DNA from: Phycisphaerae bacterium | GTDB lineage: Bacteria > Planctomycetota > Phycisphaerae > UBA1845 > Fen-1342 | DNA: 64,000 nt | Assembly (NCBI GenBank): GCA_017999985.1 | Contig: JAGNKU010000007.1 | Span: 124,001-188,000, forward strand | Reading direction: 5' to 3' | Shown: in pieces, positions 30,698 through 33,858 of the stretch | Position numbering within the stretch: position 1 is the stretch's first letter | How the letters are laid out: each line of letters starts with the position of its first letter | Position numbers and translations under genes: made by a program | Notes under the pieces: model-generated | Database searches by the model: none | Told to the model about the DNA's origin: nothing | Seen by the model: the letters and a program-made list of their open reading frames with translations, nothing else

Positions 30698-30725
30698 TTG
30701 ACATCCCCGCCCCAGCCGATAAAGT
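30698..30725 (+). promoter_or_regulatory. Promoter of thrS-infC
   Basis: A perfect TTGACA at 30698-30703 and TAAAGT at 30720-30725 are spaced by 16 bases. The predicted transcript starts about 30732, leaving a leader of roughly 255 bases before the thrS ATG. The long leader contains the structured segment at 30836-30918. Confidence 0.6.
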
Positions 30726-30835
30726 GCTGAGTGTATCATCTGGTGGGACCGTTTCTGGTCACGACCCGGTTCGGGACGCCCAGGTCGCCGCGCCCGGGTA
30801 CAGGATGGCTGTTTTGTGGCATGATGGATCACGGG

Positions 30836-30918
30836 GTTGAAACGTGAGCGAGCCGTCCAGCGGAGGGAGCGCCGGCAGCGCGCTCGCCCGCCCGTCCAGT
30901 TCGTTCCCGCGTTTCAAC
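30836..30918 (+). promoter_or_regulatory. Structured thrS leader RNA, possible autoregulatory element
   Basis: GTTGAAACG (30836-30844) and CGTTTCAAC (30910-30918) form a perfect 9-base closing stem. Inside, GCGAGC (30848-30853) can pair with GCTCGC (30882-30887). Alternatively GAGCGC (30867-30872) can pair with GCGCTC (30880-30885). The two inner helices share bases and exclude each other. Threonyl-tRNA synthetase of E. coli represses its own mRNA through leader structures, so this is a plausible control element; it matches no riboswitch I know. The rest of the 311-base gap 30678-30988 shows only the promoter. Confidence 0.45.
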
Positions 30919-30988
30919 GGCCGGCTTCCTACCCGCCATCGCCGGCCTGGCCCCACGCTCCCCACACGCCCATGAGGATCACCTCTCC

Positions 30989-33127
30989 ATGCTGAAGGTG
31001 CACCTACCCGACGGCAACGTCGTCGAACATCCCGACGGCGCGTCAGTGCTGGATGTGCTCCAGTCGGTTGCGCCGGGGCTGGCGCGCAAGGCCGTCGCCG
31101 CCAAAGTCAACGGCAAGATCGTGGACCTCGCGACGCGCCTCACCGGCCCGGAGGTCACACTCGTCGCGCTCAAGCCGGATGATCCGGCCGGGCTCGAGGT
31201 GCTCCGTCATAGCTGCGCGCACGTCATGGCCGAGGCCGTCTGCACGCTCTGGCCGGAGACGAAACTCGCCTATGGGCCGCCGGTCGACAACGGCTTCTAC
31301 TACGACATCGAGCTGGACCACAGCCTGACGCCCGAAGACTTCGTCCGCATCGAAGCCAAGATGGACGAGATCGTGCGGGCCGACCGGCCGTTCACGCGCT
31401 ATGAGCTGCCGCGCGACGAGGCCCTGGCCAAGCTGCGCGCCGAGGGTAACCCCTACAAGATCGACAACGCGGAGCGCGCCGACGGCAACACGCTCAGCTT
31501 CTACACGACCGGCGAGCCTGGTGCGGGTCATTTCGAGGATCTCTGCCGTGGCCCGCATGTCCCCAGCACCGGCCGCATCGGCGCCTACAAGGTCATGCAG
31601 GTGGCCGGCGCCTACTGGCACGGCGACTCCAGCAAGCAGATGCTCCAGCGCGTCTACGGCACGACCTTCCCCGACAAGAAGGCGCTGAAAGCCCACCTTG
31701 AGCAGCTCGAGGAAGCCAGGAAGCGCGACCACCGCAAACTCGGCCAGGAGCTCGGCCTGTTCACCATCGACCCGCTGGTCGGCACGGGCCTGGTGCTCTG
31801 GAAGCCCCGCGGGGCCGTCATCCGCCGCGTGCTGGAAGCCTACATCCTCGACGAACTGCTCAAACGCGGCTACCAGCCCGTGTACACGCCGCAGATCGGC
31901 CGCCTGGATTTGTACCGCACGAGCGGACACTTCCCCTACTACAAGGACGCCCAGTATCCGCCGCTGTTCGAGTCGGACCGCGCCCGCCTGCTGAACGCCC
32001 TCTGGGAAGTCGCGCACGCATCGAAAGCGGATCACGCGGACGCCGCCGAGATCGCGCTCTTCGAGCGCATCGCCGGCGAATACCCGGAGCTGGCGAAGGC
32101 CGGCTATCCGGCGAAGTCGCCCGCGGAGGATCGGCTGCGGCGCATCCGGAGCTGGCTCGCCCAGGAGGACGGCTACCTGCTCCGGCCGATGAACTGCCCG
32201 CACCACATCCGCATCTACGCATCGGACGCCCGCAGCTATCGCGACCTGCCCGTGCGCATCGCCGAGTTCGGCCAGGTGTATCGCTACGAGCAGTCCGGCG
32301 AAGTCTCCGGCATGACCCGCGTCCGCGGTTTCTGCCAGGACGATGCTCACATTTTCTGCACGCAGGAGCAGTTGCTCGACGAGATCGCGGGCTGCGTGGA
32401 CATGGCGAAGCTCTCACTGCGGGTCATCGGCCTGAAGGACTACCGCGTGCGCGTCGGCCTGGGCGACGGCAGCGAGAAGTACATCGGCGGGCCCGAGCTC
32501 TGGGCCAAGGCCGAGGCCGCCGTGCTCGATGCCGTCCGCACCAGTGGCATGGACCACGTCGTCGAGCGCGGCGAGGCCGCGTTCTACGGCCCGAAGATCG
32601 ACTTCATCGTGAAGGACTGCATCGGCCGCGAGTGGCAGCTCGGCACCGTGCAGGTGGACTACAACCTGCCCGAGCGCTTCGACCTGAAGTACGTCGGCGA
32701 GGACAACCACGAGCACCGGCCGGTGATGATCCACCGCGCGCCATTCGGCAGCATGGAGCGCTTCGTCGGCATCCTCATCGAGCAATTCGCCGGCGCGTTC
32801 CCGCTCTGGCTGTCGCCGGTGCAGGTGCGCATCTGCTCGATCAGCGCGAAGTCGAAAGAGTACGCCCAGAAGGTTTTCGAGCTGTGCCGCGCCGCGCCGC
32901 TGCGGGCCGAGCTGGACAACAGCGATGACCGCATCGGCAACAAGATCCGGCTGGCCGCACACGCGAAGATTCCGTATATCCTGGTGGTCGGCGAGCAGGA
33001 AGCCGCCGAAGGGAAGGTGAACGTCCGCACGCGCGAGGGCAAGCAGTATGGAAGCTTCACGCTGCCCGAGTTCCTGGCCGCGTGCGCCATTGAAATCGCG
33101 AACCGGGGCGAAGAGCCCCGTGCCTGA
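30989..33127 (+). CDS. thrS: Threonyl-tRNA synthetase
   Basis: Charges tRNA-Thr. Order: TGS domain (about 1-62), the editing domain with zinc-like HxxxH (His74, His78) and CxxxH (Cys186, His190) in FEDLCRGPHVPSTG, a class II catalytic core with GLVLWKPRGAVIRRVLE and YRYEQSGEVSGMTRVRGFCQDDAHIFC, and the anticodon-binding domain (about 610-712). The motif usually read MNCPGH is MNCPHH here. Between the YYKD block (about 318) and the LLRPMNCP block (about 395) there are around 60 extra residues compared with E. coli, largely helical and charged. At 712 residues it exceeds the ~640 norm. infC follows after a short gap. Confidence 0.96.
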   Translation: MLKVHLPDGNVVEHPDGASVLDVLQSVAPGLARKAVAAKVNGKIVDLATRLTGPEVTLVALKPDDPAGLEVLRHSCAHVMAEAVCTLWPETKLAYGPPVDNGFYYDIELDHSLTPEDFVRIEAKMDEIVRADRPFTRYELPRDEALAKLRAEGNPYKIDNAERADGNTLSFYTTGEPGAGHFEDLCRGPHVPSTGRIGAYKVMQVAGAYWHGDSSKQMLQRVYGTTFPDKKALKAHLEQLEEARKRDHRKLGQELGLFTIDPLVGTGLVLWKPRGAVIRRVLEAYILDELLKRGYQPVYTPQIGRLDLYRTSGHFPYYKDAQYPPLFESDRARLLNALWEVAHASKADHADAAEIALFERIAGEYPELAKAGYPAKSPAEDRLRRIRSWLAQEDGYLLRPMNCPHHIRIYASDARSYRDLPVRIAEFGQVYRYEQSGEVSGMTRVRGFCQDDAHIFCTQEQLLDEIAGCVDMAKLSLRVIGLKDYRVRVGLGDGSEKYIGGPELWAKAEAAVLDAVRTSGMDHVVERGEAAFYGPKIDFIVKDCIGREWQLGTVQVDYNLPERFDLKYVGEDNHEHRPVMIHRAPFGSMERFVGILIEQFAGAFPLWLSPVQVRICSISAKSKEYAQKVFELCRAAPLRAELDNSDDRIGNKIRLAAHAKIPYILVVGEQEAAEGKVNVRTREGKQYGSFTLPEFLAACAIEIANRGEEPRA

Positions 33128-33195: not shown

Positions 33196-33858
33196 AATCT
33201 GAACTTGCGCTGCAACGAGCAGATTCGCGTCTCGCCGGTGCGCTTGATCGGTGAGAACAACGAACAGCTCGGGATCCTCCCCAATTACGAGGCCCTGCGC
33301 CTGGCGCGCGAGGCCGGGGTGGATCTGGTCGAGGTGGCCCCGAACGTGCGGCCACCGGTTTGCCGCCTGATGAACTACGGCAAATGGAAGTACACCCAGA
33401 AGAAGAACGTCAAGAAACACCACGAGCAGCAGACCAAGGAAGTGCGCTTGCGGCCCAAGACCGACACGCACGACCGCCAGATCAAGGTTCGCCAGGCCAT
33501 CAAGTTCTTCAAGAAGGGTGACAAGGTCCAGTTCACGATGGTCTTCCGCGGCCGCGAACGCTTCCGTCGCGAGGTCGCGCTGGACGTCTTCAAGTCGATC
33601 CTCGACGAGTTCGGCACGCGCGTGAAGGTGGAACGCCCGCCGTCCATGGACGGCCGGCACATGGTCATGATCCTCTCCGCGCTGAAAGACGCCTTCGGCG
33701 ACGTCGATGCCAGCGACGAAACCGCCGCGGCGCCGTCGTCGAAACCCGCGCCCGCTCCGCCGCCGGCCTCCGCCGACCCGGCTCCCGGCGCCGAGCAGGC
33801 CCCCGCGCTCCAGCACGAGACGCCACCGGCCCTGTCCGTGCCCGAGCCCCAGGGCTGA
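33193..33858 (+). CDS. infC: Translation initiation factor IF-3
   Basis: IF-3 binds the 30S subunit and checks start codon-initiator tRNA pairing. The N-domain reads RCNEQIRVSPVRLIGENNEQ and the linker DLVEVAPNVRPPVCRLMNYGKWKY contains the PROSITE-type signature. The C-domain has EVRLRPKTDTHDRQIKVRQA and GRHMVMILSALK. An extra C-terminal tail of about 50 residues is Pro/Ala-rich and probably disordered, a lengthening seen in several Planctomycetota IF-3 proteins. With an AUC start at 33193 the product is 221 residues; a TTG start at 33205 would shorten it by four. rpmI and rplT, which usually follow infC, are absent here. Confidence 0.93.
   Translation: MNLNLRCNEQIRVSPVRLIGENNEQLGILPNYEALRLAREAGVDLVEVAPNVRPPVCRLMNYGKWKYTQKKNVKKHHEQQTKEVRLRPKTDTHDRQIKVRQAIKFFKKGDKVQFTMVFRGRERFRREVALDVFKSILDEFGTRVKVERPPSMDGRHMVMILSALKDAFGDVDASDETAAAPSSKPAPAPPPASADPAPGAEQAPALQHETPPALSVPEPQG

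Follow-up and report, generated by a model that had tools for sequence, protein, structure and literature searches.

The leader of the threonyl-tRNA synthetase gene thrS in a 64,000-nucleotide stretch of DNA from a Phycisphaerae bacterium (this whole stretch is called the window here) is probably a ribosome-mediated attenuator which senses charged tRNA-Thr. A conserved hairpin in this leader overlaps the end of a short, threonine-containing open reading frame, which suggests a ribosome-stalling switch sensing the supply of threonine.

The thrS leader and its promoter

30698 to 30725, forward strand: predicted promoter, TTGACA (30698-30703) and TAAAGT (30720-30725), 10/12 sigma-70-like
30972 to 30978, forward strand: Shine-Dalgarno sequence (SD) of thrS, GAGGA within ATGAGGA, overlapping the stop of a 43-codon frame
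30989 to 33127, forward strand: thrS, threonyl-tRNA synthetase (ThrRS), from its sequence and from ThrRS matches in relatives

A sequence-only reading of this DNA had described a leader of about 255 nt behind a good promoter, and this agrees with the predicted site above, that length being given by the end of the promoter-like site at 30725. For the family comparison, the sequences 5' of 25 thrS genes from the window's family were aligned, and a TTGAC-N-TANANT motif is present in 23 of these leaders. Shortly downstream of the presumed transcript start (at about 30740-30800 in the window), many of them also contain another 5' hairpin, the sequence of which is unrelated from genome to genome.

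A conserved hairpin within the leader

30836 to 30845, forward strand: 5' arm of helix P1 (fold, alignment and covariation), overlapping the last leader-peptide codons
30846 to 30853, forward strand: 5' arm of helix P2 (fold, covariation and blind scan)
30899 to 30906, forward strand: 3' arm of P2 (fold, covariation and blind scan)
30909 to 30918, forward strand: 3' arm of P1 (fold, alignment and covariation)

The perfect 9-bp closing stem noted by the same reading is formed by GTTGAAACG (30836-30844) and CGTTTCAAC (30910-30918), and can be extended to 11 bp with one G-T pair. A perfect 9-bp inverted pair arose somewhere in the leader in 140 of 1000 shuffles and so says little by itself. Compared with shuffled sequences, the 106-nt hairpin had a fold z-score of -2.79 and its 95-nt core one of -3.18, the 301-nt leader as a whole was not unusual (z = -0.67), and the hairpin fold energy lay below the shuffled mean in all 17 family sequences examined.

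Comparison with relatives, which the sequence-only reading had suggested, showed that the stem is kept, aligning well in eight close thrS leaders (the window, L002, L003, L005, L006, L007, L013 and L017). A covariation test of own-genome against cross-genome pairing, carried out on these eight and L004 (nine leaders), supported both P1 (24/20000 permutations) and P2 (17/20000); an outer 5-bp helix, P0, was rejected as unsupported (1913/20000). A blind scan of all helix positions (1480 pairs, seven genera) placed P2 at the top; 4 pairs reached p ≤ 0.002 against about 3 expected, so that the weight of P2 rests on this top rank and on its nesting directly in P1. The covariation of P1 and P2 is moderate, because the strands were first picked by eye and because the number of low-p pairs in the blind scan was about that expected. 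The stem, like the leader and its promoter, was confirmed. What did not survive was the idea of mutually exclusive helices acting as a device: the two inner stems, GCGAGC/GCTCGC (30848-30853/30882-30887) and GAGCGC/GCGCTC (30867-30872/30880-30885), are indeed present and have bases 30882-30885 in common, but the inner alternative, tested as the P2 5' strand paired with the apical region, is not conserved and is peculiar to the window sequence (5807/20000 permutations). The apical parts of the hairpin are not conserved either. A covariance model of this close form, run on 61 genomes, gave a strong score only at the eight thrS leaders used to build it, and the distant thrS leaders were not reached.

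The leader does not look like a T-box, as had been said. T-boxes likewise place synthetase genes under amino-acid control, but RF00230 had no match in any of the 61 genomes (the same search matched 5 of 14 controls) and no known T-box feature was seen. No other Rfam family matched; across 13 loci, with E-values allowed up to 5, only sub-threshold miRNA and similar models appeared.

Threonine codons upstream of thrS

30824 to 30847, forward strand: leader-peptide frame MDHGVET-stop (ATG GAT CAC GGG GTT GAA ACG TGA), from the small-ORF listing and from relatives
30842 to 30844, forward strand: candidate regulatory threonine codon ACG, directly 5' of the TGA at 30845-30847

The CGTGA in the 5' arm of P1 is invariant across all eight close leaders and is read as Thr-stop in seven of them, and as Ser-stop (TCG TGA) in L002. 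Their leader peptides, each ending at a stop codon like all those given below, are MLTRGVET (L013), MSTRGATT (L006), MVRGVET (L003 and L005), MDHGNET (L007), MQRGIET (L017) and the threonine-free MARRIES (L002), and that of L004 is MWCRVAT. The window frame has a second in-frame ATG at 30821 and a single threonine codon, and it lacks a good SD at the usual distance, only a remote AGGA lying upstream; by eye, AGGAG or AAGGA is found 6-7 nt 5' of the start in L003, L005 and L006. More distant leaders of the family carry MLRTRGTRTL, MMLRTQTL, MTVIQTT, MAGRTATL, MRSETTRA and others at a similar distance from thrS. Two near-identical pairs among the 25 family leaders were reduced to a single member each, and 17 of the resulting 23 had a threonine-containing ORF of 4-12 codons ending at -152 to -130, compared to 2.0 ± 1.3 (maximum 7) in local shuffles, and 11 of the 23 had at least two threonine codons in the ORF at this place (0.5 ± 0.7 in shuffles, maximum 4). 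Arginine occurs at least once in the fixed-place ORFs of 16 of the 23, and twice in 3. Such a threonine ORF is absent at this place from the other six, among which L010 and L020 have a promoter too near to thrS to include it and L009 and L023 lack the promoter motif; L002, ending Glu-Ser-stop, and L021 fail to fit the threonine leader-peptide reading.

The enrichment extends beyond the family. When each leader was represented by its 4-15-codon ORF with the highest count of codons from one box and compared with shuffled sequence, the threonine box scored 1.82 against 0.84 ± 0.10 over 55 leaders (z = 9.4; 6.8 in the window's family alone and 6.9 in sister families), the next highest boxes being serine (z = 4.7 over all 55) and proline (4.7 in the window's family). 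A short ORF with at least two threonine codons is present in 34 of the 55 thrS leaders, compared to 10.5 ± 2.6 when shuffled. In 68 further leaders, many of them from other planctomycete orders, threonine is the sole clearly enriched box (z = 4.8, next box 1.2). Sister-family leader peptides include MRSTTRTTAS, MKPTTRTTE, MTRTTL, MTTRTSS, MTRTA, MARTTA and MTHTVL, and those found elsewhere in the class include MSMTTTTTGTTTTPL, MAPNPTTTTTTASG, MSQTSTTTTPTPCRG and MTTTTTTPEGG. The leuS, pheS and trpS genes of the same genome had no notable leader ORF rich in cognate codons (at best two leucine codons, the pheS and trpS starts being uncertain).

It would be possible to read the leader as a constitutive structured 5' UTR, in which hairpins stabilise the mRNA and the threonine codon of the window is fortuitous, and the single codon here, the six family leaders without a threonine ORF and the ordinary fold of the whole leader would all suit this. 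We consider it very improbable, given that threonine is enriched at a fixed position in leaders of different genera, that threonine leaders occur class-wide and that P1 and P2 covary.

Poly-threonine leader peptides, with up to nine threonine codons, occur elsewhere in the Phycisphaerae (L078, L085, L086 and L113), with textbook terminators before thrS.

The output step

30909 to 30970, forward strand: C-rich, G-poor stretch and candidate Rho-loading region, between the hairpin and the thrS ribosome-binding site and starting inside the P1 3' arm

In sister families a large hairpin and, after it, a U-tract lie a short way 5' of thrS, and the leader ORF overlaps this hairpin, borders on it or is contained in it; U-tract terminators were found in 18 of 30 sister-family leaders compared to 5.7 ± 2.0 in shuffled sequence. 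Several threonine leaders further out in the class also have textbook terminators downstream. In the window's family U-tract terminators are at chance level (3/25 leaders, 3.6 ± 1.7 when shuffled), although the hairpin is retained. The stretch between the hairpin and the SD is unusual here: C minus G is 0.29 over 30909-30970, a value reached by 0.4% of the 62-nt stretches of the window, and in the family the 62 nt preceding the SD of thrS have a mean C of 0.40 and G of 0.25, with C at least 1.5 times G in 15 of 25 leaders compared to 0/9, 1/9 and 1/9 in sister families f4, f7 and f8. As the U-tract is missing, this stretch is C-rich and G-poor and a Rho gene is present, our guess is that the last step in the window's family may be Rho-dependent or U-less termination within it. 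This is put forward as a guess since the folding model gave no consistent change on stalling: simulated stalling altered the accessibility of the thrS ribosome-binding site in few of 19 cases (3 up, 1 down) and the pairing of the C-rich stretch in either direction (4 more paired, 5 less paired of 19), and translational attenuation by hiding either of them was set aside on these results. No separate conserved antiterminator was found, the inner alternative not being conserved, and the ribosome itself may play that part.

The sister-family leaders L028-L031 and L052-L055 (for example L053, 341-446) have a terminator-like hairpin whose 5' arm carries an MRSTTRTTA-type peptide; they are a cleaner example than the window leader and would make the better experimental model.

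The E. coli thrS gene has a translational operator with a structured leader. By analogy, ThrRS could bind the P1-P2 hairpin as a mimic of tRNA-Thr and so block thrS translation autogenously, and the right gene, a conserved and covarying hairpin which in its close form scored strongly only at thrS among 61 genomes, and the C-rich stretch before the SD would be compatible with this. We think it improbable all the same: hairpin loops of the NGU anticodon type are present in 4 of 25 leaders compared to 6.5 ± 1.8 in shuffled sequence, so that anticodon mimicry was rejected, the apical parts vary, the sister families carry a terminator at the equivalent place, and the threonine codons, which would be left unexplained, point to sensing by the ribosome. 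The sequence-only reading had left attenuation and autogenous control side by side; the threonine-codon leader peptide in the 5' arm, which it had not seen, favours the former, and the lack of NGU-loop enrichment goes against the latter. The E. coli operator is mentioned in PMC2965389.

A second frame over the hairpin

30844 to 30975, forward strand: 43-codon open frame, its GTG at 30844 overlapping the leader-peptide stop and its TGA at 30973-30975 lying in the thrS SD region (ATGAGGA)

The bases of the hairpin are also covered by this frame, whose preservation offers a competing use for them and counts against the attenuator reading. The conserved block would then be the start of an upstream ORF ending on the thrS SD, acting by translational coupling or occlusion with the hairpin hiding the start. 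Identical GTG and TGA codons bound a frame of 41-44 codons in the eight close leaders, with all gaps being multiples of three, and in 11 less closely related leaders (a near-identical pair from one genus included) a frame of 13-15 codons runs to the same TGA; in L020 a 12-codon frame ends 7 nt earlier. The gap of 13 nt from its stop to the thrS start is near the 10-13 bp peak linked to reinitiation in PMC4833913, where leader genes that end 10-13 bp ahead of a gene are described as being in excess, also in Planctomycetes. Through this frame thrS may be subject to reinitiation or occlusion, but we regard this account of the conserved block as unlikely: the peptide is nearly unconserved (frame score 0.29 compared to 2.15-3.28 for thrS blocks), the product of chance-open probabilities (0.027) is not extreme, L004 breaks the frame, and the GTG overlaps a stop codon better explained as that of the leader peptide. 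Reading the hairpin region as a conserved protein was rejected on its weak codon signal, and the frame was kept only as a rival.

Proposed mechanism

The conserved promoter, the hairpin, the threonine-codon ORFs overlapping its arm and the sister-family terminators can be read from the sequences; we infer that the leader peptide is translated, that ribosomes stall on it and, for the window's family, how the output step works as a whole. A ribosome would translate the leader peptide of 7-8 codons (30821/30824-30847), the last sense codon of which is threonine (ACG). When Thr-tRNA is scarce it would stall at this ACG, where it would sit on the 5' arms of both P1 and P2 and so block the hairpin; when Thr-tRNA is ample it would terminate and leave, the hairpin would form, and less thrS mRNA or protein would be made. 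In sister families the equivalent hairpin with its U-tract would be an intrinsic terminator, which a ribosome held on the threonine codons would prevent from forming; in the window's family, where the U-tract is gone, the final step would probably be termination within the C-rich stretch, either Rho-dependent or U-less. A broader version, which we hold only tentatively, is that a thrS attenuator may run through the class Phycisphaerae, the threonine codons of the leader peptide being themselves the 5' arm of a terminator hairpin and one stalled ribosome replacing an antiterminator, and that in the window's family the terminator may have been swapped for Rho-type or U-less termination and a second frame ending on the thrS SD, with the sensor kept.

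Relation to known attenuators

The thr, phe and trp attenuators of proteobacteria have cognate codons in a short ORF with a hairpin downstream. The thrS leaders resemble these in their cognate-codon ORF and hairpin, with a U-tract terminator in sister families, but differ in that no separate antiterminator was found, that a stalled ribosome would occupy the hairpin arm itself, and that the window's family is without a U-tract. The closest precedent is thrL before thrS in Streptomyces lividans, which, according to PMC8079986, has a leader peptide with two threonine codons (MKRVRPFLETTPGFVPAR), one hairpin and no U-rich tract; the two share a short threonine leader peptide before thrS, a single hairpin and the absence of a U-rich tract, whereas the S. 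lividans transcript is leaderless compared to about 90 nt before the leader peptide in the window, and only in the window do the leader-peptide codons themselves form the 5' arm of the hairpin. No report of a leader peptide for thrS or a synthetase in planctomycetes was found in the open-access literature. Leader-peptide attenuation is thus known in other bacteria and unreported there for thrS in planctomycetes, with the sensor supported by the sequences compared here and the output in the window's family offered as a proposal. It would give a testable amino-acid switch in a phylum for which little RNA regulation is known, and possible control of a synthetase gene where no T-box was found, and the natural series from sister families with a U-tract to the window's family without one may show how the output of an attenuator can change when its sensor stays the same.

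Other features of the locus

A 7-codon frame of the window, MRITSPC (30972-30995), begins with the ATGAGG at position -17 relative to the thrS start, and its TGA overlaps the thrS start region. Most family leaders keep the ATG at -17, even where the AGG is absent (L008, L011 and L020); CATGAGG-N-ATG is not rare within the window (2 matches, 0.69 expected). An ORF at 33205, 3' of thrS, is presumably infC-like, being named from its own sequence. A search with the window ThrRS gave a match in 59 of the 61 genomes of the order, and in five sister genomes among these (G027, G029, G030, G034 and G057) the match lies only on either side of about residues 327-394, some 68 residues of the window protein being unmatched, suggesting a lineage-specific insertion.
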